Below, piece by piece: positions 9,134-43,707 of a DNA stretch of 52,016 nucleotides. Both the position numbers and the translations under genes were made by a program. Under the pieces are notes generated by a model. That model did not search any database. It saw nothing but the letters and a program-made list of their open reading frames with translations, and was not told the origin of the DNA. This stretch comes from Corallococcus carmarthensis (lineage in GTDB: Bacteria > Myxococcota > Myxococcia > Myxococcales > Myxococcaceae), in assembly GCF_003611695.1 (NCBI RefSeq), contig NZ_RAWE01000053.1, positions 1-52,016 on the forward strand. The letters run 5' to 3'. The first letter of the stretch is position 1, and each line of letters begins with the position of its first letter.

Positions 9134-10813
9134 TCACAACCGCCAGGCTTGAGGCGCGGGCTCCCGCACCAGTCCGGGGCTTCTGCGATTGACCAACCGG
9201 CTGCGGGGATCCACCGCGACCTGCTGTACCTTCCACGGCAACCCCTCCACCATGAGCCCCACCGTCGCGGACTCCGGCTCCAGGCCGTATGAGACCGTGA
9301 CCCGCCGCCGCTGTTCCGGCGCCTCGCCCTGAAGCTCCAGCTCCACCTCGCAGGGATACGCCTTCCCGGTCTGCGTCCGCTGCGTCACGGTCAGCGTCAG
9401 CGCATCCGACTGGCTCCACTCGACCTGGAAGTAAGGCCAGTCCGGCTCCCCTTCCCCGTCCACCCAGGTATCGAAGTAGCGCTGGAGGTCCCTTCCCGAG
9501 GCGGCTTCAAGCGCCGTGCGCAGGTCCTCGATACTCCGGACGCCCGGCTCCGCCAGGAACGCCTGGAGCCCCGCGAGCACCTGGGCCCGTCCCAGCAGGG
9601 ACTCCAGTTGCACGAGGAGGATCATCGGACCCGTGCCGTAGATGTCATTGACGAAGGTGAGAAAGGGCGGCGCGGGGCTGTCTCGAGGACGCAGGTAATA
9701 GGAAGCCGTCCGCGCCAGCCGGTCCCAGTACGCCAGCGTCCAGGTGGCCTCTTCGCTCCGGTGCTCGTCTTCAAAGACATACGTGAGGTACTCCGCCACC
9801 GCTTCCTTCCACGGGAAGTCCCCCGCGCTCGCCAGGGTCGTCCGGTCGCCGGCCCACTGATGCACGATCTCGTGCATCAACGTGTGCAACGTCATGTTGG
9901 CGTAGGACCTGGGAAGCAATGGCAGGTTGTCGCGCAGGATGATGTTGGCGGGATGCTCCATTCCCAGCCACTCCGTGGGCCCGCTGGCGACACGCAGCTC
10001 GGGGCCATAGGGCAGTGGCCCGAAGCGGGCCGTCATCCACGCCAGGAAGTCCGCCACCGCGGCCGCGTCGATCGCCGGGCCCAGCAGGCCCCCCTGTGGC
10101 GCATACAGCTCCACGCGCCCCACGTCCGAATCCACCAGCCGCGTGCGCGTCCACGCCGGATGCGACGCGACCATGAAGGCCGAGTACGTGGGGGCTCGCG
10201 TGCCCAGCAGCTCACAACGCGTGTGCGTGTCATCCCGTCGCGACAGGCTCCCCGGGCACAGCACCACCTCGCCCGGCGCGTGCGTGATGTCGAAGGTGAA
10301 GTGCGCCAGCCTTCCGGGCGCAGGGTCACAGGGGCCGAAGAGGTCGCAGGACTCCACCCAGCCCAGCAGATACGTGAAGGGACGGCCCTGCGCATCCGGC
10401 CGGCGCGACAACCCCACCTGCGTGTACGGGGTCGTGGCCTCCGGGATGACCAACCGGCTGTCCACCCACAACGGCCCGTCCGGCGGCGTCGTGCCACAGA
10501 CCTCCACGCGCCCGTCCGCCACGCGCAGTCCTCCGGGAGGAGCCCCGCCCCACCGCACGTCCGTCACCTCCTCACGAGCCGGAAGGAACAGGCATCCCCG
10601 CGCGCCCGCTTCCACGCCCAACCACAACCGTGACGCCGCCTCCCGCGTCGTCAGGTCGAAAGCGAAGTCATAGCGGTCCACCGTGTACGCCAACAGGGGC
10701 CCACCCGCGTCCGGCGATTCCGGCGGTCCCAGGGGCGGCTCCCCGGACTCGCAGCCCGTCATGCCCAGGACGAACCACAGCGGCGCGAAGCGTCTGAGCA
10801 GAGATGAGAGCAC
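9134..10813 (-). CDS. M1-family (gluzincin) zinc metallopeptidase lipoprotein
   Basis: A 559-residue predicted zinc peptidase. Residues 1-21 form a lipoprotein signal (FVLGMTGC, Cys21), so it is probably tethered in the envelope. The catalytic site is classical: His314-Glu-Ile-Val-His318 followed by exactly 18 residues and Glu337 in KEAVAEYL. The upstream exopeptidase motif, usually GAMEN, appears as LGMEHP at 283-288, a variant in which the amino-terminus-recognising part is changed. The N-terminal ~230 residues form the beta-rich domain expected of M1 enzymes. At 559 residues it lacks the long C-terminal helical domain of full-size aminopeptidases. Aminopeptidase activity is likely but the altered GAMEN leaves it open. 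Confidence 0.87.
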   Translation of the reverse strand: MLSSLLRRFAPLWFVLGMTGCESGEPPLGPPESPDAGGPLLAYTVDRYDFAFDLTTREAASRLWLGVEAGARGCLFLPAREEVTDVRWGGAPPGGLRVADGRVEVCGTTPPDGPLWVDSRLVIPEATTPYTQVGLSRRPDAQGRPFTYLLGWVESCDLFGPCDPAPGRLAHFTFDITHAPGEVVLCPGSLSRRDDTHTRCELLGTRAPTYSAFMVASHPAWTRTRLVDSDVGRVELYAPQGGLLGPAIDAAAVADFLAWMTARFGPLPYGPELRVASGPTEWLGMEHPANIILRDNLPLLPRSYANMTLHTLMHEIVHQWAGDRTTLASAGDFPWKEAVAEYLTYVFEDEHRSEEATWTLAYWDRLARTASYYLRPRDSPAPPFLTFVNDIYGTGPMILLVQLESLLGRAQVLAGLQAFLAEPGVRSIEDLRTALEAASGRDLQRYFDTWVDGEGEPDWPYFQVEWSQSDALTLTVTQRTQTGKAYPCEVELELQGEAPEQRRRVTVSYGLEPESATVGLMVEGLPWKVQQVAVDPRSRLVNRRSPGLVREPAPQAWRL

Positions 10814-10853
10814 GGCCCGGATACGGCCCCAGACGCCCTCTTGGGTCGCCCCG

Positions 10854-10890
10854 CCAAAGAAAGAGGGGCGGCCAACGCTCCGGCCGCCCT
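10854..10890 (-). terminator. intrinsic terminator downstream of the GH3 gene
   Basis: Read on the minus strand, an eight-base GC stem (10882-10889 with 10866-10873, loop of eight) is followed by a CTCTTTCTTT tail. It lies 24 bases past the GH3 stop codon and marks the end of the glycan locus. Confidence 0.75.
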
Positions 10891-10913
10891 CCCCTCACCT
10901 CAAGCCTTCACGC

Positions 10914-13900
10914 CTACTTCGTGAAGGTGATGGGTCCCGACGACAGCGTGGTGTTGTTCGCGCCGTCCACCGCGCGGACGCGCCACGTGTGCGAGCCCGT
11001 GGACAGACCGTTCAGCGCCGTCTGCTCCGTGCCCACGCCGTACACCTCGAACTCCCACAGCGAGTAGCCGTACGCCGTCGCGCGCTGCACGCCGCGCATG
11101 CGCACGTAGCGGCCCACGCCAGCCACGGTCCAGTCGTCGATGCCGCCGTCGCCGGTGTCCACCGTCTTCAGCGCCACCCAGTTGGTGGAGCCGTCCAGCG
11201 ACGCCTCCAGCACGTAGCGGCGGCCGTATGCGGCCTCCCAGTTCAGCACGATGCGCTTGAGGGAGTAGATGGCCCCCAGGTCCACCGTGATGGAATCGGT
11301 GTCGCCCGTCGTCGCGGTGCCCACGCTGGACCACCGCGTCGTCAGGCTGCCGTCCACCGCGTCGTTCGCGCTGCCGAACTCCACGGACGAGGCGTAGGCG
11401 TTCTTGCCCCGCGCCAGGTTCGTGCCCGCCGCCACTGGCGTGCTGCGCAGGATGGAGGGGCTGCGGTCCGTGCCGTCCACGATGAGGACGTACTCCGCCA
11501 CGCCCGCGCCCACGTCCGTCGTCTGCTCCCAGATGAAGCGCGTGGACGTGCCCGGCACCGCCTGCCCGGCGGACGGCGACAACGCCGCGAAGGCCGCCGG
11601 CGGCGTCGTGTCGTTCAGCGTGAAGGTGAACGTCGCGGACTGCGTGACGCCGTTCGCCCAGTTGAACGCCTTCACGAACCAGGTGTGCACCCCGTTCGCC
11701 AGCTTCAGCCCGTCCAGCGGCGCCGACGGCGTCTTGGTGATGGCGACCGGCATCGCGCCACCGTCCAGATACACCTCGTAGCGCTGGATGCCCGTCTGCG
11801 CATCGCTGCTCGCGGTCCAGGTGAACGCCGGACGCGTGCCGGTGATCACCAGGTTGTTCGCCGGCGTCTGCAGGGTGAACGCCGCGGGCGGCGTCGCATC
11901 CGTCAGGCCGAAGCCCTGGATGCCGGAGCCGTACTGGTACAGCGGGTTGCCGTACGTGGGCGGCACAGGCTGGCCCGCCGCGATCTTCTGGCGGATGGCC
12001 GTGCGCTCCGCGTCCGTCGCGCCCAGGTCGTACGGCAGGTCCCACTTCTCCAGCTGGTTGTTCTCCACGTCCGTACCGATCTGGCTCATGGAGCGAGGCA
12101 GCTGCCACGGCGTCTTGCCGCGCGGCAGCACGTCACCGAACAGCACGTCCGCCACCGCGTAGCCGCCCATGTCGCCGGGGCGGTACGCCAGCATCAGCGC
12201 GCTGGAGATGGGGACCACGTTCGTCAGCACGTAGGGCCGGGGGCTGATCAACACCACCGTCGTGGGGATGCCCCGCGACTTGAAGCTGTTGATGACGCCG
12301 AACTGATCGCCCCACTTCGCGTCGTGGGCCGGACCAATCGGGTCACCCGGCAGGTACGGCTTCTCCTTGTCCCACTCCGTGCCATGCGTGAAGTAGCTCT
12401 CGCCCACCACCACGATGGCCGCGTCCGGCGTCACGCCCGCGGGGGCGTTGTCCTTGTAGACCGTGAGCCCCGCGGCCTCCGCGCGCGCCTTCACCGCCGC
12501 GTAGATGGTCGGGTCGCCGAACTCGTAGCCGTGGAAGTCCGAACGCCAGGTCACCATGCAGGACATGTCGTCCGCGCGGGGGCCCGCGATGACCAGCTTG
12601 CCGCCCGCCGGCAGGCGGATGGGCAGCGCGCCGTCATTCTTGAGCAGCGTCATGGCCTCCTGGGAGGCGCGGCGCACCGCCGCCTTGCTGTCCGCGGTGT
12701 GCCACTGGGACGTGCCCGCCGGGCCCTGCTTGTACGGGTCCTCGAAGATGCCCAGGCGGAACTTCAGGTCCAGGATGCGGCGCACGGAGTCGTTGATACG
12801 CGCGAGCGGAACCTCGCTCTCGAAGTTGGCCATCGCGGACGGCGTCGCGCCGCCCATCACGTCCGAGCCCGCCGTGGCGGACCGCACCCACGAACCCGAC
12901 GGCAGCCAGTCCGAGCAGATGACGCCGTCGTACTTCAGCTGGTTGCGCAGGTAGTTGAGGATGCCCGGGTTGTCACCCGCGCCGTAGCCCTCCGGCCCCA
13001 GCAGCCAGCTGCCCGCGTAGCCCGGCATGATGCCGCTGGTGCCCGCCTCGATGGCCGCGTGCCACGGACGCATGTGGTAGTGGATGGTGGTGCCGTCGTA
13101 GGTGATGCCCGCCTCACCGCCGGCGCCCTGGCCCGGCCAGTGCTTCGTCGTCACCCAGATGGAGGACGGGTTGACTTCCGGACCGCCCTGGAGGCCCGCG
13201 ACGAGCGCGCGGGTGATGCCCGCCGCCAGGTCCGCGTCCTCGCCGTTGCCTTCCTGGATGCGCGGATAGAGGACCTTGGTGTTCACCTCCGCCAGCGGCG
13301 ACAGCGTGCCGCGGCTGCCAATGGCCAGCTGTTCGCGGCGCTGGATGTCACCCATCTCATAGATGGTGTCCAGGTCGCGCGTGGCGGCCAGCGCCGGCTG
13401 CGTGGGCCAGCTCGTCTTGTAGCCGTGGATGGAGTCACCCGCGTCGATGTGCGGGATGCCCAGCCGCGTGGCCGCGGACGCCTTCTGGAACATGGGGATG
13501 TCCGTGGGCGACAGGGGCCCCATCTGGAAGCCGGCCTCCGGATAGATCTTGGCGTCGTAGAACATCTGGAGCGCCTTCTCGTGCAGCGTCATGCGGCCCA
13601 AGAGGTCGTTCACGCGCACGGAGATGGGGTTGTGCCAGTCCTCGTACGGCTCAATCGTCCCGTTCTTGTTCAGGTCGCGCGAACCGTTGACGATGTTCAC
13701 GCCGTCCGCCTGCGTCTCCACCACCGGCAGGTACACGCTGAAGTTGCCGATGTCCGAGCGCGACGTGGTGCCACCCGACAGCGTGGCCACGACGTACCAC
13801 TTGTACGTCCAGCGGTCCGGCAGGTCCTCCGTGAAGGTGAAGGACGTGCCCGTCTGCGACGCCACCTGCGTGTAGCGATCCAGCAGGTTGCCCGCCGCCA

Positions 13901-29049: not shown

Positions 29050-29832
29050 TCAATGCCACTGGATGTCGTCGATGAAGAGCACAAGCGGCTTGACGTCCAG
29101 CCCGCCCGCCGACCAGCCGAAGCCCGCACCGACCTCGGTGTAGCGGACCTTGCTGATGTCCAGCGTGTACTGCTTGGGCTCGTTGGTCAGCGTGACGTTG
29201 ATCTTCTTCGTGAAGCCATCCTTGCTGGCGTCGCCGTAGCCCACGAAGAAGTCAACGACCTCGCCGCCGGACTCGCCCCAGGCGTAGAAGGTCACGGACT
29301 TCGCGCCGTCCGGCACCAGGAAGCCGGGGCGCGGGTCGTCCGCCCAGGCGCCCTCCGGGAACTGCCAGAAGACGCCGGCCCAGGCGTCGTCCTTCTTGGT
29401 GGCGGTGAACTTGTGGCAGTTGCCCAGGCCCGCGCCCGGACGGGGCGTGTGGCAGATGGGCTCGTCCACCAGGCCGCCCTGCCCGCCTCCGCCCGCGCCC
29501 ATGTAGCCGCTGGCCGCCCAGGTGCCGTCCACCGCCAGGGGCAGCGTCGTCTGCGTGCCCGCGTCCACGCCGGCGTCGGTGTTCGTGCCCGCGTCGGTGT
29601 TCGTGCCGGCGTCGGTGTTCGTGCCCGCGTCGGTGTTCGTCCCGGCGTCGGTGCCCGCGTCGGTGTTCGTCCCAGCGTCGGTGTTCGAGCCCGCGTCGGT
29701 CTTGGTGCCGGCGTCGGTCTGGTTGCTGGGGTTGGGGTTCTCCTCCTCGGGGTCACAGGCGCCAATGAGCCCCGCGACCGCGAAAACTCCGGCGGCCGCC
29801 CACGTCCACGCGAAACGCTTGTTGCGAAGCAT
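29050..29832 (-). CDS. TDAG-linker lipoprotein with carbohydrate-binding-like domain
   Basis: A 260-residue lipoprotein. Signal peptide with Cys26 in VAGLIGAC, then an (N/T)TDAGT repeat linker at residues 39-93. A beta-rich domain follows at ~95-260: DGAKSVTFYAWGESGGEVVDFFVGYGD, then a YTLDISKV strand and the final LVLFIDDIQWH. The closing strands resemble galactose-binding-like CBMs. It is probably a surface glucan-binding protein held away from the membrane by the linker. A strong AGGAGG lies six bases before ATG 29832. It is the first gene of the locus, with a candidate operator 33 bases upstream. Confidence 0.8.
   Translation of the reverse strand: MLRNKRFAWTWAAAGVFAVAGLIGACDPEEENPNPSNQTDAGTKTDAGSNTDAGTNTDAGTDAGTNTDAGTNTDAGTNTDAGTNTDAGVDAGTQTTLPLAVDGTWAASGYMGAGGGGQGGLVDEPICHTPRPGAGLGNCHKFTATKKDDAWAGVFWQFPEGAWADDPRPGFLVPDGAKSVTFYAWGESGGEVVDFFVGYGDASKDGFTKKINVTLTNEPKQYTLDISKVRYTEVGAGFGWSAGGLDVKPLVLFIDDIQWH
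29554..29718 (-). repeat. TDAG codon repeat (18-base unit)
   Basis: Encodes residues 39-93 of the lipoprotein as repeats of TDAGTN with one shortened unit. The plus strand shows recurring GTGTTCGTGCCCGCGTCG-like units. It is a shorter relative of the array at 42816-43355. Confidence 0.85.
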
Positions 29833-30355: not shown

Positions 30356-30811
30356 TCAGCGACGAGTGCACGGCACGTCGCACGCACCATTCTGGCAACG
30401 AGCGCACGTCACCTGGCCTGATGCCTTGCACGCATCGAGAACGCTCTGAAGTATCGCCCCAGTCCACTCTTCCGCCTGCTGGTAATCCGCCTCACTCGCG
30501 CCAGGTGGCAGGGTCGTTGCGACGACCAGCAAGGTGGGCCCAAGCCCCTGATGCTGCTGAATCATCGTGGATCCCTGATGGACCATCGATGGCCCTTCCA
30601 CTTCCGATATCAGCACCAGCTGCCTGTCCAACCTGCCGGTGCTCCGCAATCGGATCCTGCGCAATCCATCATTGACACATGACTCACCCACTGCCGCCGT
30701 GAGGCGTGCCATGTGATCCACCGATGGATCATGCTTCTTCCCGGGCAGCCAAGAACAAGCCCACAAGGCTGAAGCAGCAGCCAGGGGGACGAAGAGAAGA
30801 GAAGGCTTCAT
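30356..30811 (-). CDS. small lipoprotein downstream of the RHS toxin-like gene (candidate immunity protein)
   Basis: A 151-residue lipoprotein (LFVPLAAASALWAC, Cys19) of no family I recognise. The body contains LDRQLVLISEVEGPSM and TLLVVATTLPPGASEADYQQAEEWTGAILQSVLDAC, and the end is Cys-rich (CARCQNGACDVPC), suggesting disulfides outside the cytoplasm. Its start lies only three bases after the stop of the RHS gene. In polymorphic toxin loci that position belongs to the cognate immunity gene, and an exported lipoprotein would protect against a toxin acting in the envelope. The immunity role is inferred from position alone. Confidence 0.65.
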   Translation of the reverse strand: MKPSLLFVPLAAASALWACSWLPGKKHDPSVDHMARLTAAVGESCVNDGLRRIRLRSTGRLDRQLVLISEVEGPSMVHQGSTMIQQHQGLGPTLLVVATTLPPGASEADYQQAEEWTGAILQSVLDACKASGQVTCARCQNGACDVPCTRR

Positions 30812-30814
30812 GGT

Positions 30815-33800
30815 TCACTTTGAACTCTGCGTCGGAAAAGGAGTCGGTGGGTTTTGATTCGGGCCCCACTCAAGAGGGTTCAGCTGGGAGTGCGTTCCAG
30901 TAAAGAACTGCGAAAGTCCCTGGAACATCAAATGCAACGGGAAGTACTGGTCTCCCAGGATGTCCGACTGAAGGATATGAGCCTCTTCGTGAGCACGGTT
31001 TTTGGTGTCACGTCCATAGCAGACGACTCGCCCAAACGTGGTGTCGTAACCACGGCTCACCTGGGTCGGGTGATTCACCACTTGAATGTATGGGCCAGCC
31101 ATTGGCGCCCACTGGACGCTGATGTTCGCACCACTGAACGCCCCGTATCCAACTCCATATACAAGACCAACGAAATTCTGCACGTTGAAGATCGGATCCT
31201 TTCCAGTCGGGTCGGTCACACCGATCGGATTGTTCACCGCATATGCGTACGCAGGCAGTGCAGCCGGGCCCTTCGCCAGCATCGGCTCAGGCTGTAGGTA
31301 CCGCCCCACGCTCGGGTCGTAGTAACGGTTCCAATTTTCGAAGAGGTCCGTCTCCGCGTCGTAGTAGTGGCCCGCGAAGCGCAGTGGCGTCCAGAAGGGC
31401 TGAGCGCCCGTCTGGTAGCGCTGGTACTCGTAGCTCTCCATCGCCGCCCCGGTGGACATATTCGGTCCGGAGCTGTCGGGCGGGCCCGCGAAAATGCTCA
31501 CGCCCAGCCCATCGACGGGCAGCGAGAACCAGGGGGTTATGACCTGGTCCATCTCCGGGTCCTGATAGCTCACCGTCTGAGGATCCAAGGGGTCATTCCT
31601 GAAGACCGTCACTTCGTCTTGACCATCATGGATGTCGACGAACAGGAGCCGGGCGCGCGCGCGCACCTGGACATTGCTGTTCTCCGCGGGCTGCCGGAAG
31701 CCTGAGAAGATCTCTCCATCGTTATCCGCGTAAGGAATCGCGGAACTGTCCGCCGTAGAAAGCCGGTTGACGTGGCCAAAGGGTTGATAGTCCGCTGCGC
31801 CCGCCACCAACCCGTCACCGTTCAACATCAGAACCGGCTTGCCCACGATGTCCGTCACGGGAAAGTAGACGCCGCACGCCGCAGGCTCGCCGTCACGCCT
31901 GCAATCCGCGGTCGAGTCAGGCTCCCGGACGTTCTGCGTCGCATCCAATCTGCCCCGGACAATCATCAACGGGCGTCCTCCGAGCCAGACGTAGTCATCC
32001 ACCACGCGGAAGTTTCCCTGAGTCAGCTGGCTGACCTCATTCCAGCCCTGGTCCACCAGGAGCTGGTTGCCAGTCCCATGAAAGTACTCATCCCGCTGAT
32101 TAAACGGGTTGACCTTGGCGCGTCGGCGGCCCAGGGCATCGTAGAAGTAGTTGTACGTCATGCCGTTGACCCGTACGGCACGGAAGACGGACTCTCTCGC
32201 CGACCCCTGCCCTTGCGGCGCATTGAAGGGCGCATAGCGGAACTCGAGCAGGTTGGCGGGCTGCCCCGACGCGTAGTGGCCAAGCTCCTTGCTCACGGCG
32301 CGACCATCCGCGTCGTAGGTGAAGTTCACCACTTTCGACTGTCCGAAGTACTGCGGGTAGGGTGGCGTCACAGACAGCAGCAGGTCCGCACGGCTCCCTG
32401 TCTCATATGCATGCGCGAAAGACGGCATGCTGCTGGAATCAGCATACTGAACGCGGTTGCCGCGACGATCATAGGCAAAATCATGCAGCTCAAAGGCACC
32501 ACCCGTCGCATACGCATTGCCCGTGGGCCTTGCCGCGGACGTCAACCGCAGGGTCCGGTCATAAGCATACAGCTCCGTCCTGGGCGTCGTCGCCCCCAGA
32601 AGACACGTGTCCGCCCGCACGACCTGATCCGCGTTCCATGTATAGGTGCGTTTGTAGATGCCACCATCGTTGAACGTGCTGCCCGGATTGAAGTCGTCCC
32701 GGTACACGCGCAGGGAGCGCAACCGCCCCGTCAGATCCGAGTTCGTGGCGGACGGGAAGGCCACCGAACAGTGGGTGGGGGCCTGCGTGCCATCATCCCC
32801 CAGAGCATACTCCACAGCGACCGGGCGTGATTGAGCGGGCAAAGGGTTGAGCTGATAGCCCCGCAGACCGCCGAACGGCTCCCAGGCCACCTTGCTCACC
32901 AGTCGTTTGGTTTGCGGACCGGAGCTCGTGAAGAGGGTCACGTCGATGGCCGCGACCCGATGTGCATTCGCATGCGTGCCATACACATAGGCAATCGTTC
33001 GCCCATACGGATATTGGACCTCCTCCAACCGGCCAAGCGAGTCGTAGGTGTACCGCGTCTCAAGCTCCGGTGTGCACCCCACCTCGCCCTGCCGCTGCCT
33101 CAGTTCCGACTCCACTCGCCCCAGTACGTCGTAGCGGTACCAGGTCCGGCCCAGCGAGTCGTCGCGGTACCGCAAACCGCCCTCGGAGTGCATCACGGCA
33201 CTGCCACAGCCCGACGGCACCGTCCCGTCCGCGTCATAGCCGAACTGGTAGAGCATCTCACTGGCAGGCGTGGTGCCGCTGCTCCTGCGCTTCGCGTTCA
33301 GGGGCCGGCTCAGGATGTCGTAGCTGTACTCCAGCCACTCGTTCGCCAACCGCATGGCCTCCGTCTGCTTCACGAGCAGGTTGCCGCGCGCATCGAAGGC
33401 CTGGAGCACCGGCCCGGTGGCATGCGGAAGCTGGGTCTGAACAAGGTTTCCAAAGTCGTCGTACTGATACGAGGCCAGCAGACCACAGCCCGCGACCGCG
33501 CTGGCACAGCCCGCACGAACGGCGTTCACATTGCCCTGGGCATCGTAGGCGAGCGTCGTGTGCTGTTCGACACCTCCGGACAGATACTCGGAGACGCGGT
33601 TGATGCGGTCCGCCGAGTCGTACCCCATCTGGGTGCAAAGCGCGGAGAGGGTCGTATCCGGATTGCGGCAGAAGTCAGGGGCGGCGTTGAAGGGCCGGCC
33701 GGTCGCGATCAGATTGCTATTGAGGTCGAAGCCGCTGACGGCGGCGAAACTTCCCGTCCCCACACCCTGCCGGGCGTAGGTGGGGCGCGCTTGGGGGTCC

Positions 33801-36800
33801 GGATGATGCGTCGACTGGGTCCGGAGTTCTTCGACGCCATTGCGGCGGGAACGCCGCTCCTCGGTCTTCAACGCACCATTGGGCCAGTAGGTCCTGACCG
33901 ACTTTTCGCTCCAGTCCACTCCAAACTCATCATCCGCCACGGCCATCCACTGGAGTTGGGTTGTCTTCTGCCCGCCCTGGCATCCCGCTCCAGCAGTTCC
34001 CGTCCGATAGCAGTAGACCGTCCAGACTCCGTCAGCCTCCTGTACCGCACGCACCTGAGCTCCGTCGTAGCGCAGGGTCGTCGACAGCCCCTCGCCCGTT
34101 GCGCTCAAGAGGCGTCCGCCCTGGTACGTCATCATCATCATGCCGCCCTGAGGGGTGACGATCTTGGTCGCGACGCCGCGTGCGTCGTAATCCCGGTATT
34201 CGGTCGTAAGCGGTGCCGAGGCACAGGTGTCCGACGCACCCTGATGAGCGGTGTAACGCGACATCTTCCAGAGGCGTCCCGCATTGTTACTGCGCTCCAC
34301 CGAGGGCGGCCCATAGTAGCGATACTGGGTGATGGGGTAGTCAGAGCCCGAGCAGCCCGTTGCCTCCGGGCCGCTCACGAGACATGGGCCCCGCACCTCC
34401 TTCAGCACCGTGCCGCCCGTGTCGCTCTCTCCAGAGCACTTGAGGTGGTTGTAATAGAAGATGCCGACATGACGGGCCACGGGGCTTGACCACGTGCCGG
34501 TCCCATCGTTGAACGTCTGGGTAAAGCCGGAGCGGATGACGGATTTTACGAACTGAGTCGCCGTGTCGTAGATGGTCCGCGTGACAACCTGGCCATTCGG
34601 TTGCAAGACGGAGGGCATGGTGTCCGTGGAGAACTCAACGGGCTTCCAGGGGTTGGGAGTCGCCCCCGAAGGGAAGCTGGCGAGCACCTGGGTCGTCGTT
34701 CCGCCCGTAACGCCACCGTTGCCGTTGTAATCCTGACCGTAACTCCAGGACGCCTGCAACACAGGCCCAGGCACGGCGGGAACGGAGCCCGTGCCCGCCG
34801 GAGCAAAGGCCTTCTGGGTGACGTCGTAACGCCCGAGCTTATTCCGGACAGAGCTCATGTAGAGCGTGCCATCCGCAGGCGTCGCGTACCCATAGTTGAT
34901 GTCGCCGGACGCGAAACTCATGCAGTTGCCCGTGCCGGGCAGACAGGTGTCCTGGATAGAGGACAGGATCGCGTACGGGGCATAGGTCGTATTGCTTGGG
35001 AAGAACTTCCGGCGGTACTGGACGGTGCTGCCCGCGGAATCACCAGACGAAGCGGTCATGGGTTCTGCGGCGGGAGGGACGCAGTTGGGTCCGCCCCCCA
35101 TGGATGCCGGACCGTCACAGTTTCCGGAGCCCGCGCTCATGGCCATGCTGGTGGTTGTGCCCGTGCTGACCGACGCCACCTTGCCAGCTTGGTACTGGTG
35201 TCCCGTCAGGACCGACTGATTGACCGTGACCTTCCAGGTCGTGGAGGTGGCGGTGGTCGCGGTGGTGTCCTCGTAGGTGATGCTGTCCCCTGTCTCAGGG
35301 TAGTCCACTCCCGAGAGAAGCCCTGACGTCTCGATGGTTGTCGAAGGAAGAGTGGGATAGCGATACGTCGCGACCAGAACTTCTTCCGCTTGGAGGACCG
35401 AGTTGGACGAATTGGGATTCTTGCGCAAATACAGTTTGTCGAGGACGCACTCCGTGCCTGGAGTCGCGAAGAAACCACTCGAGACACCACGGTAGGCCAG
35501 ACGCAGCTTGGCGCCCTCCTCCGTCGTCACCGTCGACAAGTAGGGGACACCGTTGCCCAAGCCGCTCTGTCCCGGGCAAGGGAAGCTCACTCCATTCTGG
35601 ACAAAATCAGGAGGCGCGGCGTATTGAAGTGTGAGACGGACGCGCGGGGTTCCTGTCAAACGCTCCTCTTCGATTCGCGACAGAAAATACCGGCTCACCA
35701 CATTTCCGCTTTTCCAGCCGGCTTCATAGACGAATCGTCCCTCGCCTGGCTTGATGAGCACGAAAGCGCCAGCGCCCGTACGGTAGAGGCTGGCGTTGGA
35801 CCACCGGCTGGTCTTTCGCGGCGTCGCGAAACAGCCAACCCCCGCGGGATTGCAGGCCGCGAACTCCAGCACCTCCCCTTCCGTGTCACGCACCGCCCAG
35901 GTGCTGACTCCTGGCACCGTCCCCTTGATGTAGACGAAGCTGTAGAGGGTGTGCCACCAACGGAGAGAGCTGGGACGGGTCGGGCTGGAGCCGAAAGGTT
36001 TCGGAACATAGGGCTCCGAGCTGCTGCCCAGCATGGACTGGTAGGACCAGAAGTTATCGGTGGAGACGTACTTCCGGACGAAGTTCAGGCCCCCCAGTTC
36101 ACCGTAAAGGCCTACGTCCACCGCACTGAAGCGCGTGGTCAGGTCCTTCAAGTTGACGCGGGGCAGGGACATGGAGGAGACACCGGCCCCTGCCACTGGC
36201 GCAACCGTCCCTTCGCAGACATTGTCTTTCTTGGGCTCGGGCCGCCTTACGGGCTTGGAACCATCCCCTCCGCCTCCTCCGCCACCACCTCCGCCGCCAC
36301 CGCGCCCCGGGTAGTAACCACCTGGGTGCCGCCCGGGAGGAGGCATGGTCAACGTGAAGCCTGGCAAATACGTGCGATCCTCCTTCGGAGGGCATGTCGC
36401 GACCGGGGGGTTTGTCGCTGTGCCGCCCCCAGGGCGAGGGTCGACGACCTCCGATTCAACGGTTGGGCATTGCGGTTCCATGCTTGCGCTGACGCCTGAA
36501 CCCGGCGTGCCGAAGCCACCCTGTGCATAGCCACACACGCTCCCAGCCGCGCAATACGCGCCAGCGAGCGTGCGCGCCCCGGTGGTGATGTTGATCTCCG
36601 GCTTGATACCGGCGCACGTGTTGCCACAGGCATTGCTGTCATCGCAGGAGGCACCAGGCGTGCACTCGAAGTTGAGGGTACTGGACATGGAGCAGTGCAT
36701 CTCGCCCGCGACGTAGCCCTCCGAACTGCAGGACTTGCTGGACACGCAGCACTGGAAGTTCCCTCCAGCCTGACTCCCCCCCAGGCCAAAGAGCGGGGCC

Positions 36801-37294
36801 TTGAGACACCCATTCGGGCCGCTGCACGAGCTCTGGGAATCCCCAGAGCCCAGGCAGTAGCCGACGTTCAGCCCGTCCCCGCACCCACAGGTCCAGCGCA
36901 CGTACTGGCCCGACCTGAGCTCGCAGTAATCGAACGTGGCATTGTCCGCGCAGCCCTCGTCCGCCATGCCATCCCGGTCGTCGTCGCATCCGTTGCCACA
37001 GGCATCTATCGATTGGGCAGAAGGGGGCTGGCAGGGTCCCAGGTTCTCACCGTCCAAACACACCGCCGTACCGCCAGCGCCACACAGGGCACATGCCTGG
37101 GGCTGGTTGTGGGCGACACATTCGCCCCACTCCCCCACGTCTCCTGGCGGCGCCGAGCACTGCTTGAAGCCCTTGCACCCCCCACTCATGGTGCATGAGG
37201 TGGTCTCACCGAAGGAGCAGGTGGGAGCTGCCTCCGCCCTTTCCCAGGTAACCAGGCAAAGGACACACAACAACATCCGGACAGACAAAGGCAT
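30815..37294 (-). CDS. large exported RHS/YD-repeat protein with HExxH C-terminal domain
   Basis: A 2159-residue RHS-family protein. Signal peptide at 1-22 (MLLCVLCLVTWERAEA). Residues ~23-280 are Cys-rich with EGF-like spacing, followed by a poly-Gly linker near 345. YD repeats extend over ~900-1800 (YDARGVATKI, YDSLGRLEEVQYPYGRTIAYVYG, YDALGRRRAKV). The core end motif RYLQPEPML...AYAYAVNNPIGVTDPTG stops at residue 2031. The remaining 128 residues are the variable tip. They have two hydrophobic stretches and HEEAH at 2102-2106 followed by ILQSDILGDQYFP, an HExxH pattern suggesting a zinc peptidase-like toxin. ATG 37294 has GGAG six bases upstream and starts the signal peptide. Base composition looks less GC-rich than its neighbours, suggesting transfer. 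Confidence 0.88.
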   Translation of the reverse strand: MPLSVRMLLCVLCLVTWERAEAAPTCSFGETTSCTMSGGCKGFKQCSAPPGDVGEWGECVAHNQPQACALCGAGGTAVCLDGENLGPCQPPSAQSIDACGNGCDDDRDGMADEGCADNATFDYCELRSGQYVRWTCGCGDGLNVGYCLGSGDSQSSCSGPNGCLKAPLFGLGGSQAGGNFQCCVSSKSCSSEGYVAGEMHCSMSSTLNFECTPGASCDDSNACGNTCAGIKPEINITTGARTLAGAYCAAGSVCGYAQGGFGTPGSGVSASMEPQCPTVESEVVDPRPGGGTATNPPVATCPPKEDRTYLPGFTLTMPPPGRHPGGYYPGRGGGGGGGGGGGGDGSKPVRRPEPKKDNVCEGTVAPVAGAGVSSMSLPRVNLKDLTTRFSAVDVGLYGELGGLNFVRKYVSTDNFWSYQSMLGSSSEPYVPKPFGSSPTRPSSLRWWHTLYSFVYIKGTVPGVSTWAVRDTEGEVLEFAACNPAGVGCFATPRKTSRWSNASLYRTGAGAFVLIKPGEGRFVYEAGWKSGNVVSRYFLSRIEEERLTGTPRVRLTLQYAAPPDFVQNGVSFPCPGQSGLGNGVPYLSTVTTEEGAKLRLAYRGVSSGFFATPGTECVLDKLYLRKNPNSSNSVLQAEEVLVATYRYPTLPSTTIETSGLLSGVDYPETGDSITYEDTTATTATSTTWKVTVNQSVLTGHQYQAGKVASVSTGTTTSMAMSAGSGNCDGPASMGGGPNCVPPAAEPMTASSGDSAGSTVQYRRKFFPSNTTYAPYAILSSIQDTCLPGTGNCMSFASGDINYGYATPADGTLYMSSVRNKLGRYDVTQKAFAPAGTGSVPAVPGPVLQASWSYGQDYNGNGGVTGGTTTQVLASFPSGATPNPWKPVEFSTDTMPSVLQPNGQVVTRTIYDTATQFVKSVIRSGFTQTFNDGTGTWSSPVARHVGIFYYNHLKCSGESDTGGTVLKEVRGPCLVSGPEATGCSGSDYPITQYRYYGPPSVERSNNAGRLWKMSRYTAHQGASDTCASAPLTTEYRDYDARGVATKIVTPQGGMMMMTYQGGRLLSATGEGLSTTLRYDGAQVRAVQEADGVWTVYCYRTGTAGAGCQGGQKTTQLQWMAVADDEFGVDWSEKSVRTYWPNGALKTEERRSRRNGVEELRTQSTHHPDPQARPTYARQGVGTGSFAAVSGFDLNSNLIATGRPFNAAPDFCRNPDTTLSALCTQMGYDSADRINRVSEYLSGGVEQHTTLAYDAQGNVNAVRAGCASAVAGCGLLASYQYDDFGNLVQTQLPHATGPVLQAFDARGNLLVKQTEAMRLANEWLEYSYDILSRPLNAKRRSSGTTPASEMLYQFGYDADGTVPSGCGSAVMHSEGGLRYRDDSLGRTWYRYDVLGRVESELRQRQGEVGCTPELETRYTYDSLGRLEEVQYPYGRTIAYVYGTHANAHRVAAIDVTLFTSSGPQTKRLVSKVAWEPFGGLRGYQLNPLPAQSRPVAVEYALGDDGTQAPTHCSVAFPSATNSDLTGRLRSLRVYRDDFNPGSTFNDGGIYKRTYTWNADQVVRADTCLLGATTPRTELYAYDRTLRLTSAARPTGNAYATGGAFELHDFAYDRRGNRVQYADSSSMPSFAHAYETGSRADLLLSVTPPYPQYFGQSKVVNFTYDADGRAVSKELGHYASGQPANLLEFRYAPFNAPQGQGSARESVFRAVRVNGMTYNYFYDALGRRRAKVNPFNQRDEYFHGTGNQLLVDQGWNEVSQLTQGNFRVVDDYVWLGGRPLMIVRGRLDATQNVREPDSTADCRRDGEPAACGVYFPVTDIVGKPVLMLNGDGLVAGAADYQPFGHVNRLSTADSSAIPYADNDGEIFSGFRQPAENSNVQVRARARLLFVDIHDGQDEVTVFRNDPLDPQTVSYQDPEMDQVITPWFSLPVDGLGVSIFAGPPDSSGPNMSTGAAMESYEYQRYQTGAQPFWTPLRFAGHYYDAETDLFENWNRYYDPSVGRYLQPEPMLAKGPAALPAYAYAVNNPIGVTDPTGKDPIFNVQNFVGLVYGVGYGAFSGANISVQWAPMAGPYIQVVNHPTQVSRGYDTTFGRVVCYGRDTKNRAHEEAHILQSDILGDQYFPLHLMFQGLSQFFTGTHSQLNPLEWGPNQNPPTPFPTQSSK

Positions 37295-37335: not shown

Positions 37336-37722
37336 TCAGCCGCGGGATGGCGCCACGGCGCCCTTCCACTCCGCGGGGGGGACACAGACGCCGGCACGGG
37401 CCCCAGGATGCGCCCGCGAGCACTTCCACTGTGCCGGGCATCTGACTTCGCCCGCGCACGACTGGCTGCAGAAATACCCCTCATCAGGCAAGGCCCCTGT
37501 GTGCAGACAGAGACCGGACTTGCACCCGGAGGCACCGAACTTCGTGCAGTCCTCGCCGACCTCCATCGAGGCGGACTCAGCCAGCGCCGTGCGGTGCTCG
37601 GCCAGGACAGGCGAGGGATCGGAGGTGGGGGCCGGCTGCTCCGAGGAACACGCCAGCACGCCTGCCATGAGTCCACCCAGAAGCCATGGGGACAGAGGCC
37701 ACACACACCCAAGAGATTTCAA
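37336..37722 (-). CDS. Cys-rich lipoprotein
   Basis: A 128-residue lipoprotein (LLGGLMAGVLACSS) with a compact Cys-rich domain: C..FGASGCKSGLC...YFCSQSC...RCPAQWKCS...GVC. The spacing is typical of small secreted disulfide domains in myxobacteria. It starts at TTG 37722 with GGGAAGG upstream. It ends 41 bases before the RHS gene, so the two are probably co-transcribed. Its role is unknown; an accessory factor for display of the RHS protein is possible. Confidence 0.7.
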   Translation of the reverse strand: MKSLGCVWPLSPWLLGGLMAGVLACSSEQPAPTSDPSPVLAEHRTALAESASMEVGEDCTKFGASGCKSGLCLHTGALPDEGYFCSQSCAGEVRCPAQWKCSRAHPGARAGVCVPPAEWKGAVAPSRG

Positions 37723-37853: not shown

Positions 37854-38228
37854 TCAGTGCGTCAGCGACGGCGCGCCGATGATGCGGTGGACCACGGCGA
37901 GGAGCTGATCGATGTCGAAGGGCTTGGGCAGGAAGCCCGCGCACGGCAGGTGCTGCCAGAACTCCGGCGGGCTGGCGCTCATCATCACCACCGGGACGTC
38001 GCGCAGGAGCGGGTCCTTCTGCATGGACTCCAGCACGCCCGGCCCGTTGAGCACCGGCATCATGTAGTCGAGCAGCACCATCGCCGGACGCTCCTGCCCC
38101 ATCCGGTCCAGGGCCTCGCGGCCATTGAGCGCGGTGACGGTGCGGTAGCCTTCATCGGACAAGAGGTCGCGAACGGCCTCCACGATGCCGAACTCGTCGT
38201 CGACGATGAGGACGGGCCCCATGGTCAC
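37854..38228 (-). CDS. single-domain response regulator (CheY-like receiver)
   Basis: A 124-residue stand-alone receiver domain. The acidic pocket Asp10/Asp11 (LIVDDE), phosphoacceptor Asp54 (VLLDYMMP), switch Ser84 (MMSAS) and Lys102 (LPKPF) are all present. There is no output domain. It starts at GTG 38228 overlapping the KaiC gene's stop (GTGA), or at ATG 38222. The coupling suggests it receives or passes a signal to or from the KaiC-like ATPase, an arrangement seen with KaiC relatives in other bacteria. Confidence 0.92.
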   Translation of the reverse strand: MTMGPVLIVDDEFGIVEAVRDLLSDEGYRTVTALNGREALDRMGQERPAMVLLDYMMPVLNGPGVLESMQKDPLLRDVPVVMMSASPPEFWQHLPCAGFLPKPFDIDQLLAVVHRIIGAPSLTH

Positions 38229-41630: not shown

Positions 41631-43547
41631 TCAAGGGACTTCCGTGCCGCTCGCCTTGTTCTGCGGGCCGCGCGTGGTGCGGATGATGAAGTCCGCGCTG
41701 TTCACGTTGGTGTCGTAGCTGTTGCCCTTCGCCGCGTCCGCGCCGCTGCCTTCCATGGTCGCGGCCGACGCGCCGGCGTTGGCCTTGCGCTCGTAGCTGC
41801 CGGCGGTGGCAGGAGCCCCGCTGACGGGGCTGTTGCCTTCGGCGGCGTTCGCCGTGCCGCCGAAGCCCAGCGTGTCCACCGCGTTGGTGTCGCCCGGGGT
41901 GGTGCCCATCGCAGCGGGGCCGATGCGGACATGGCCCGCGGTGGCGCTCATGGCGAAGACCGTGCCCCAGCTGCTGTCGGCGGTGACGGTGCCCGCGTAG
42001 CCGCTGGAGGTCAGCAGGTAGAAGCCGTGGGCCGCGATGCGCGCGGTGGAAGGCAGCGTGTAGGTGCCGGAGTAGGAGGGGCCGGTGGCGCTCTTGTACT
42101 GGAGCTTCCAGCCACCGATGTTCACCTCCGCGTTCGTCGGATTGTAGAGCTCCACGAACTCATCGCCCGCACCGGCCGGGCCCCCACCGGCGACCTCGCT
42201 GATGACGACGTGGTTCGTCGTGGGGCCGGCGGTGACCTGCGCCTGGGCGGACACGGACTGGCCGTTGAGCGTGGCCACGATGGTGCCCGTCGAACCGGAC
42301 GCGCCCGCGGTGAAGGTGAACTTCGCGGAGATTTCGTTGGCCGGCACCGTCACGGTGGCCGGCACGGTGCCCACGTTGCCCGTGGTGGACAGCGCCACGG
42401 TCGTGGCCGCCGCGGCCGGGATGTCCAGCGTCACGGTGACGTTCGCCGTCTGACCGGCGGACAGGGACACCGTCTCCGGGGACAGGTACGCCAGCGAGGC
42501 CGCCTCGGTCGCACCGAGCACGCGCACCGTGGCGGTGCGCGAGTCCCCACCCAGCGTGGCCGTCAGCGTCGCCTTGGCCGAACCCGCCGCCTCGTCCGCC
42601 GTCACGACCACCGGCGCCGAGCGCGAACCCGCCGGCACCGTCACCTGGCCGCCATTGGCCACGACCACCGAGGGGCTGGACGAGGAGACCTGGACCACGA
42701 CAGCCGTGGTGGCCTCGGCGCTCAGCGTGACCTCGAGCGGCTCCGGAATCGTCTCACCCGTGGTGCCCGAGCGCGCGAAGACCGCGGCCGGCTCCAGCGC
42801 GCTGAGCGTCACCGCGGTGCCCGCGTCAGTGCCCGTGCCCGCGTCGGTACCCGTGCCCGCGTCCGGAGCCGGGCCCGCGTCGATGGCGCCGCCGTCCGTC
42901 TCCGTGCCCGCGTCGGTACCCGTGCCCGCGTCCGTCTCCGTGCCCGCGTCGGTGCCCGTGCCCGCGTCAGTACCCGTGCCCGCGTCGGTGCCCGTGCCCG
43001 CGTCCGTCTCCGTGCCCGCGTCGGTGCCCGTGCCCGCGTCAGTACCCGTGCCCGCGTCAGTACCCGTGCCCGCGTCAGTGCCCGTGCCCGCGTCAGTGCC
43101 CGTGCCCGCGTCAGTGCCGGTGCCCGCGTCAGTGCCAGTGCCCGCGTCAGTCCCCGTGCCCGCGTCGACCGTGCCGGCGTCCGTCTCGGTGCCCGCGTCA
43201 GTCGTCGTGCCGGCGTCGGTCTCCGTGCCCGCGTCGATGGTGCCCGCGTCCGTCTCAGTACCGGCGTCCGTCTCAGTACCGGCGTCCGTCTCAGTACCGG
43301 CGTCCGTCTCCGTGCCCGCGTCAGTGCCCGCGTCGGTGTTGGTGCCCGCGTCGGTCGTGGGCGTGGTCACCTGACAGCTGTTGTTGCAGCGATCGCCTTC
43401 CGTGCGATTGCCGTCGTCGCACGCTTCGCCGCTCTCGATGATGCCGTTGCCGCAGACAGGGTTCTTGTCGTCATCACCACCGCACGCCGACAACACCAAC
43501 AGCACCGCTGATAAAGGGACCAGCAGGTGCCGGGAAGACCAGGACAT
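41631..43547 (-). CDS. TDAG-repeat lipoprotein with Myxococcus Cys-rich repeat and lamin-tail domain
   Basis: A 638-residue surface lipoprotein (LVLSAC, Cys22). Residues ~30-60 form one Cys-rich DUF4215-type repeat ([16 protein letters not shown]...CNNSC). Residues 65-244 are about 30 copies of DAG in six-residue units. Residues ~245-420 look like Ig-like domains with Ala/Thr/Val-rich strands. Residues ~430-620 match a lamin-tail domain ([33 protein letters not shown]), often found in secreted nucleases and surface proteins. ATG 43547 has GGAG six bases upstream. The function is unknown; adhesion or surface presentation is plausible. It is probably monocistronic, with a hairpin after the stop. 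Confidence 0.85.
42816..43355 (-). repeat. long tandem array of 18-base units encoding [12 protein letters not shown]
   Basis: Encodes residues 65-244 of the lipoprotein. The plus strand repeats GTGCCCGCGTCAGTGCCC with small changes; several neighbouring copies are identical. All units are multiples of three, so copy-number changes keep the frame. Confidence 0.92.
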
Positions 43548-43707
43548 GGAGACTCCGTGTTGAGTACTGAGCCCCCCTGCAAACCACAAAATTACAGGCC
43601 GACGCAAACGCCGCCCGGTGACTTCTGGCTCACACCATGGGAACCCGCCAGGTCACCGATTTCTCAGGACCTGACAGCACGGGTGGGTCACCAGAACCGC
43701 CGCGGTT

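Follow-up and report, generated by a model that had tools for sequence, protein, structure and literature searches.

A candidate envelope-acting toxin-immunity pair on a signal-peptide Rhs protein of Corallococcus carmarthensis

Positions 1 to 52,016 of contig NZ_RAWE01000053.1 of Corallococcus carmarthensis (assembly GCF_003611695.1, a genome of 10.8 Mb) were analysed; this stretch is called the window here. It carries a gene for a 2159-amino-acid Rhs protein (30815..37294) whose C-terminal tip contains an HExxH motif, and the next gene encodes a lipoprotein of 151 amino acids (30356..30811). Do the tip and the lipoprotein form a toxin-immunity pair that acts in the cell envelope, as had been proposed from the sequence alone, and how would such a toxin be carried? 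Comparison of related loci supports the candidate pair by the swapping of tips and by downstream genes that are retained where the Rhs gene is lost. The locus probably encodes a gluzincin-like contact toxin of the recipient envelope, carried on a Sec-exported, surface-type Rhs protein and blocked by a lipoprotein that faces the periplasm. A second lipoprotein gene, here named U (37336..37722, 128 amino acids), lies directly upstream of the Rhs gene; it was absent from the sequence-only reading and is part of the system. The genes of this module and both flanking genes are on the minus strand.

Exchange of tip and downstream gene at one chromosomal site

The module is flanked on the left by a response regulator gene (37854..38228) and on the right by a gene for a lipoprotein with TDAG repeats that is unrelated to the module (29050..29832). 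All 16 genomes of the genus, the window's own among them, have the site between these flanks, and four carry the full module there: the window, G059, G062 and G070 (in G070 on two contigs). Compared with the window, U was 58–83% identical in the other three and the Rhs protein 61–79%. The block at DPTG was 72–73% identical in G059 and G070 and 62% in G062 (per 60 residues), while identity beyond this block was 8–25%. The tips of the three other alleles all differ from that of the window, and G059 and G070 share one type. In these two genomes the downstream gene encodes a membrane protein unlike the window's lipoprotein. In G062 it most likely encodes a 111-amino-acid membrane protein that overlaps the Rhs stop codon by 28 bases, although the coding score favoured a 74-amino-acid frame instead. 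The joint variation of tip and next gene that the sequence-only reading had asked to be looked for across strains was seen in three alleles, with shell and U conserved.

Further genomes preserve a downstream gene at the same site in the absence of an intact Rhs gene. In G069 the Rhs gene is reduced to its 3′ part (from amino acid 1441 on) in three pieces that lie in different frames, and the downstream lipoprotein is intact and 64% identical to that of the window; repeats elsewhere in this locus gave additional short matches. In G058 there was no Rhs match at the site and the lipoprotein is frameshifted. Neither G065 nor G071 has an Rhs gene at the site. In G065 it encodes a membrane protein whose homologue lies downstream in G059 and G070 (E 1.8e-18), and in G071 a small anchored protein with a relative behind another Rhs gene, at locus L031 (E 3e-8). 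A toxin gene lost and a next gene kept, as in these four genomes, is the pattern expected of a toxin with its immunity protein. The Rhs-free site of G064 consists of a 1243-bp interval with a 281-amino-acid frame without explanation (L131, about 9800–11043), and the remaining seven genomes have 391–448 bp at the site. An exchangeable tip on a conserved shell, with a coupled downstream gene, is what characterizes Rhs polymorphic toxins, and all of these features are present here.

U follows the shell. At E≤1e-6, and with no more than 29 places per genome scored, 58 of the 145 genomes of the order have homologues of U, in 92 copies; 76 of these copies immediately precede a match to the Rhs shell. 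Related shells gave at least 95 matches at E≤1e-60 with at most three places scored per genome; 77 of the 95 listed have U upstream. U is Cys-rich and carries by eye the lipobox VLA|C. Because U stays with the shell where tip and downstream gene change, its distribution suggests a role in display or delivery of the Rhs shell. A description of U was not found in the literature searched, which is no proof of novelty.

The Rhs shell and its metallopeptidase-like tip

Inspection of the translation indicated that the Rhs protein starts with a Sec signal peptide-like stretch, MPLSVRMLLCVLCLVTWERAEA|A (amino acids 1–23, 37226..37294), without a lipobox. A Cys-rich region follows (about amino acids 24–300, 36395..37225, limits approximate), and the open frame, which opens 62 residues before the start, has 34 Cys in its first 400 residues. 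The shell proper (about amino acids 361–2031, 31202..36214, left limit approximate) contains RHS repeats (PF05593, 42.9 bits, cut-off 22) and, at amino acids 1967–2031, the Rhs-associated core (TIGR03696, 63.5 bits, cut-off 32.5); PF03527 stayed under its cut-off (15.3 vs 27.9 bits). The core ends at DPTG (amino acids 2028–2031), after which comes a variable tip of 128 residues (30818..31201). No PAAR domain was matched at E≤1 in Pfam or NCBIfam, and delivery by a type VI secretion system (T6SS) was rejected for this reason. With more than 1500 residues, by eye a signal-like N-terminus and no PAAR match, the protein has the properties of surface-type Rhs proteins. Signal-like starts were found in 21 of the 30 related loci listed; in the remainder the N-terminus was outside the locus or not evident. 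The domain order read from the sequence alone, namely a signal peptide and Cys-rich N-terminus without PAAR, a core ending at DPTG and a tip with HEEAH, was borne out by eye and by these scans, with two hydrophobic stretches in the tip where one had been noted.

The HEEAH motif of the tip occupies amino acids 2102–2106 (30977..30991), and the aligned relatives that extend over this stretch retain HExxH. A motif of this type arises in 0.3% of shuffles of the window tip. Among 78 related tips, the window's included, 17 have HExxH, while 2000 rounds of shuffling gave 0.25 on average and never more than 4; chance occurrence was rejected on these counts. The 78 tips are the fetched 3′ ends for part of the shell matches, leaving out L081, whose end is off the contig, and the duplicate fetches L116–L118. 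In an alignment of 11 rows (A9) the near-invariant positions include HExxH, the Gln that comes three residues later, a G and a Y, and N..E.GP. The Glu of NPLExGP (amino acid 2142, 30869..30871) is invariant in a further alignment (A7) and nearly so in A9, which makes it a candidate third zinc ligand.

In A9 the columns H, E, H, Q and Glu are each conserved to at least 90%, which is the HExxHxxQ-E signature of DUF4157/eCIS_core (PF13699). The window tip gave nothing at E≤1 against Pfam, NCBIfam or PADLOC. One tip relative scored 12.2 bits against PF13699, below the cut-off of 22, and among 11 family members two had weak matches to this model (best E 0.18) and the window tip none. The tip profile matched a profile of three eCIS_core domains of the same genome with p 0.0004 and a probability of 35.5% over 39 columns, a match that spans the strand and the helix carrying the motif; for a control pair taken from the other HExxH tips p was 0.029, over 10 columns. 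Since the Pfam cut-off was not reached, the tip was not filed under DUF4157/eCIS_core. The same genome also encodes a 545-amino-acid protein (L135:283-1920, G000:C222) in which an Ala/Val-rich region precedes a divergent eCIS_core/DUF4157 domain (GNTIYIP...HESAHVWQ).

An AlphaFold model of the tip built from 11 rows reached a predicted local distance difference test score (pLDDT) of 85 and a predicted template modelling score of 0.76. The predicted fold consists of a helix, two hairpins and a long helix starting at HExxH. An earlier model from 6 rows (pLDDT 63) was too weak, and its match to the zinc peptidase 3c37 (VIA Z 2.3) was not used. In a viral fold library two entries stood out for the second model, A0A3T0IEK8 (template modelling score, TM, 0.67, E 0.013) and A0A8S5V2D1 (TM 0.55, E 0.056), the latter recorded under the name 'Vgr2b binding protein' of a crAss-like virus; the third-best match had E 0.85. 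DPP III and aminopeptidase N recur among the Foldseek matches listed, at values that are not significant. From motif, alignments and model we infer that the tip is a small gluzincin-like zinc metallopeptidase. Its family is hit by none of the model libraries searched.

The single tip found matches in 5 of the 145 genomes of the order and a three-row profile in 7 of the 195 genomes of the phylum (at most 21 places scored per genome), both counts including the window's own genome; relatives were also present in one metagenome-assembled genome (MAG) of Verrucomicrobiia and on five viral contigs. Seven loci have the domain as an Rhs tip: the window, the broken G069 locus, G120, G051 (an Archangium MAG), the remnants in G055 and G136, and the Verrucomicrobiia MAG. 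In G120 the similarity to the window's Rhs protein is limited to the C-terminal part (37%, tip 45%). A thirteenth match, in G108 (L051), is no Rhs tip. It belongs to a membrane protein that stands alone, has HEKVHVLQ and is followed by a regulator-like gene. This protein (L051:1300-2013) carries HEKVHVLQARILGPLYLP and is a possible cellular cousin of the tip; it has no Glu aligned to that of NPLExGP in alignment A8.

On the viral contigs (L054:769-1942, L055:3319-5934, L056:4641-5865, L057:630-2086 and L058:2-857) the tip domain is a free open reading frame (ORF) beside structural genes (by eye portal and capsid-like), with one or two genes for lipoproteins behind it. Nothing was found when the viral contigs were scanned with the window tip alone, when plasmids were searched at the protein level with the window tip, the Verrucomicrobiia tip or a phage relative, or when a phage collection was searched with the phage relative only. 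PHROGs gave no match to the queries, which did not include the window lipoprotein. On L055 a preceding ORF has similar first 24 residues and a lipoprotein-like ORF of its own, resembling an array of effectors and lipoproteins. The leader of one phage HExxH protein (L054:769-1494) resembles those of the ORFs L056:8118-8819 and L055:8076-8705 (E 4e-9 by BLAST, unfiltered and in a tiny set), and one ORF sharing this leader looks by eye like a lytic transglycosylase. The shared leader is possibly a packaging signal for ejected proteins.

Partner proteins and the probable site of action

The downstream ATG lies 3 bp past the Rhs stop codon, and its product has the lipobox ALWA|C and seven Cys, the lipobox Cys included, as judged by motif only. 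It gave nothing at E≤1 against Pfam, NCBIfam or PADLOC. The Cys-rich lipoprotein of no known family that had been read three bases behind the Rhs gene is confirmed. A tip kept without a lipoprotein, the observation that was to speak against the pair, was not seen: a protein with a clean lipobox, within normal distance of its ATG, is next in 11 of the 12 tip loci (seven Rhs and five phage), G120 being doubtful. These lipoproteins belong to at least two unrelated types by BLAST with composition correction off in a small set. The window's type occurs in its own genome, in G069, weakly in G055 (E about 1e-4) and, by tblastn, in G058. The second type is found in the phages and the Verrucomicrobiia MAG, the latter matching five of seven phage copies (E 9e-6 to 8e-10). 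The G051 and G136 proteins look by eye like homologues of the window's, a likeness unsupported by BLAST and profile comparison, so they were counted only as lipobox proteins. The downstream protein of the window is a candidate immunity protein and most likely protects the cell that makes the putative toxin.

HExxH tips as a class were compared with the other tips under one rule for lipobox, signal or membrane segments in the next gene. Exported or membrane partners followed 14 of 17 HExxH tips vs 21 of 61 other tips (Fisher p 0.0007); when each tip cluster was counted once, the figures were 12 of 15 vs 16 of 47 (p 0.003). The enrichment persisted with the window locus removed (p 0.0013, by cluster 0.005), and two of the three HExxH misses (L029 and L108) also carry signals by eye. 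Since many partners of other tips are exported as well, this is an enrichment and not a law. Over the 78 related Rhs loci, the automatic rule assigns a lipobox to the next gene in 8. Action in the envelope, as the sequence-only reading had it, is supported by the lipobox pairing and by this enrichment.

We propose the following course of events. U and the Rhs shell, whose co-occurrence is observed, would act as a conserved delivery unit, and the tip, an exchangeable toxin cassette with HExxHxxQ and a downstream Glu, is predicted to bind zinc and to be active. After contact with a neighbouring cell, the tip would be freed from the Rhs cage near DPTG and would cut envelope proteins, one or several, in the neighbour's periplasm. 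In kin, the downstream lipoprotein, presumably exported and seated on a membrane facing the periplasm, would bind and block the tip, and these cells would be spared.

A number of results weigh against this proposal. The window tip had no Pfam match even at E 10. The pLDDT 85 model gave no significant Foldseek match in the PDB (best E 0.8), and its best VIA match (Z 2.4) was to a phage polymerase; no solved structure matched, so the case for a zincin fold draws on the motif and the weak profile similarity. Homology to the window lipoprotein was not demonstrable for the downstream proteins of G051, G136 and G120, and these matched neither lipoprotein type. The G120 protein has a lipobox-like stretch only after a 44-residue extension from its sole usable start, and its lipobox was rated doubtful because this extension precedes the hydrophobic stretch. 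The G108 protein has no adjoining lipoprotein, which indicates that the domain is also used outside toxin pairs. For lipoprotein partners alone, counted behind 4 of 17 HExxH tips and 4 of 61 others (p 0.06), or by cluster behind 4 of 15 and 2 of 47 (p 0.03), there was no clear enrichment. The partner rule was drawn up with the partner list already known, and it relies on the frame with the best score even where another is the likelier gene.

The tip could instead be a releasing peptidase that processes the Rhs protein or a partner, with the lipoprotein as its anchor or substrate and no immunity involved. The HExxHxxQ-E signature is that of the PVC-metallopeptidases, most versions of which are described as releasing peptidases (PMC3482391), a domain identified elsewhere with DUF4157 (PMC8213781), and the tip has the weak profile similarity to eCIS_core given above. 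However, the domain sits at the extreme C-terminus, in a slot that is filled by unrelated tips in same-site alleles, the lipoprotein changes with the tip rather than with the shell, and the same source regards C-terminal PVC versions as likely also toxins. We consider such a releasing role unlikely. Equally improbable in our view is a toxin that acts in the recipient cytoplasm, next to a lipoprotein that blocks entry or is incidental. The myxobacterial SitA toxins do pass from the envelope into the cytoplasm, where they act as nucleases (PMC10047993), but the clean lipobox proteins that follow 11 of 12 tips come in at least two unrelated types, and HExxH tips as a class pair with exported or membrane partners. 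One rhs gene of M. xanthus affects predation and motility (PMC10433427), and the window's Rhs protein might likewise be mainly an adhesin or a motility or predation factor, its tip and lipoprotein forming a surface module that does not kill. The joint replacement of tip and next gene, together with lone genes of the downstream type at the same site, is the pattern of toxins and immunity proteins and leaves this explanation very little room. A contact toxin of the envelope with a protecting lipoprotein remains the reading that we prefer.

Beyond the genus, we can suggest only tentatively, and with the odds rather against it, that one mobile cassette of an envelope metallopeptidase and its protecting lipoprotein serves the surface Rhs proteins of myxobacteria and Verrucomicrobia as well as phage particles, and that display or delivery of the myxobacterial Rhs needs a dedicated U. 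The phage copies suggest that virions may use the same cassette.

Comparison with known systems

One of the closest parallels is VgrG2b with PA0261 (Tpe-Tpi, T6SS). VgrG2b is described as a gluzincin with Glu as third ligand that is toxic in the periplasm; its exported immunity proteins, with Cys that are conserved in part, are predicted to be lipoproteins in Enterobacteriaceae, and many VgrG2b orthologues are classed as DUF4157 (PMC6899460). Like the window pair, this system combines HExxH and a downstream Glu with a downstream gene for an exported, Cys-containing immunity protein, a property that the window lipoprotein has by its lipobox motif only. VgrG2b differs in its carrier, a VgrG spike in place of a signal-peptide Rhs protein. 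By sequence the tip had no meaningful match in the PDB and no similarity to a VgrG2b chain among matches at E≤10, and VgrG2b was absent among the Foldseek and VIA matches listed for the model. On the evidence, the window pair would work in the manner of VgrG2b and PA0261, by analogy and with no membership implied. With DUF4157/eCIS_core (PF13699) the tip has in common the HExxHxxQ-E signature and the profile match, whereas the Pfam cut-off sets the two apart.

Rhs proteins have been divided into small, T6SS-linked ones and large, signal-peptide ones that are likely on the cell surface, and two of the latter in M. xanthus are reported to act in T6SS-independent kin discrimination (PMC10433427). 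Surface display of the window's Rhs protein fits this account. The two M. xanthus proteins, Rhs4 and Rhs5, are likewise very large, with a signal sequence and a C-terminal toxin, as far as their description goes; they have about 4000 amino acids and lie on Mx-alpha prophages, whereas the window's protein has 2159 and a fixed chromosomal site. The bacterial teneurin-like proteins (TLPs), which are present in Myxococcota, also combine a surface-type YD-shell and a C-terminal toxin domain with a downstream immunity gene (PMC13018210). Gram-negative TLPs are predicted there to be lipoproteins processed by signal peptidase II (SPII), unlike the window's Rhs protein with its lipobox-free start.

Tox-MPTase1-5 and other zincin-like Rhs toxins are small HExxH domains behind RHS repeats, as is the window tip (PMC3482391). 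As the table in that source reads, no immunity is assigned to these families, whereas the window tip has a coupled lipoprotein and no Pfam model match. SitBAI of Myxococcus, which belongs to the outer-membrane-exchange toxins, has the same order of accessory gene, toxin and immunity gene (PMC5562445). In that system the toxin SitA is itself a lipoprotein, and SitB carries a type I signal; in the window the lipobox is on the upstream partner and absent from the Rhs protein. A SitA-type toxin was rejected because the window's Rhs protein by eye has no lipobox. The locus fits the known polymorphic Rhs toxins, with a tip family absent from the model libraries searched, a coupled lipoprotein and a conserved upstream lipoprotein partner. 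In a 2023 review, display and toxin delivery by the large signal-peptide Rhs proteins of myxobacteria are said to need further studies (PMC10433427). The present locus is a clean test object for this, with U travelling with the shell and the protease-lipoprotein cassette with the tip. If the proposal is true, a periplasmic protease toxin would be a mode of killing beyond the SitA nuclease toxins (PMC10047993).

Some minor observations concern related loci and the surroundings of the module. In L078, L079, L080, L082 and L083, related Rhs genes with similar ends are followed by a frame of more than 600 amino acids, which by eye has a lipobox-like start in some copies. Around the module there was no Rfam match and, in a search limited to sigma-70-type promoters, no promoter match. 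Long TDAG repeats are present in two lipoprotein genes near the module, the right flank at 29050-29832 and a second gene at 41631-43607.

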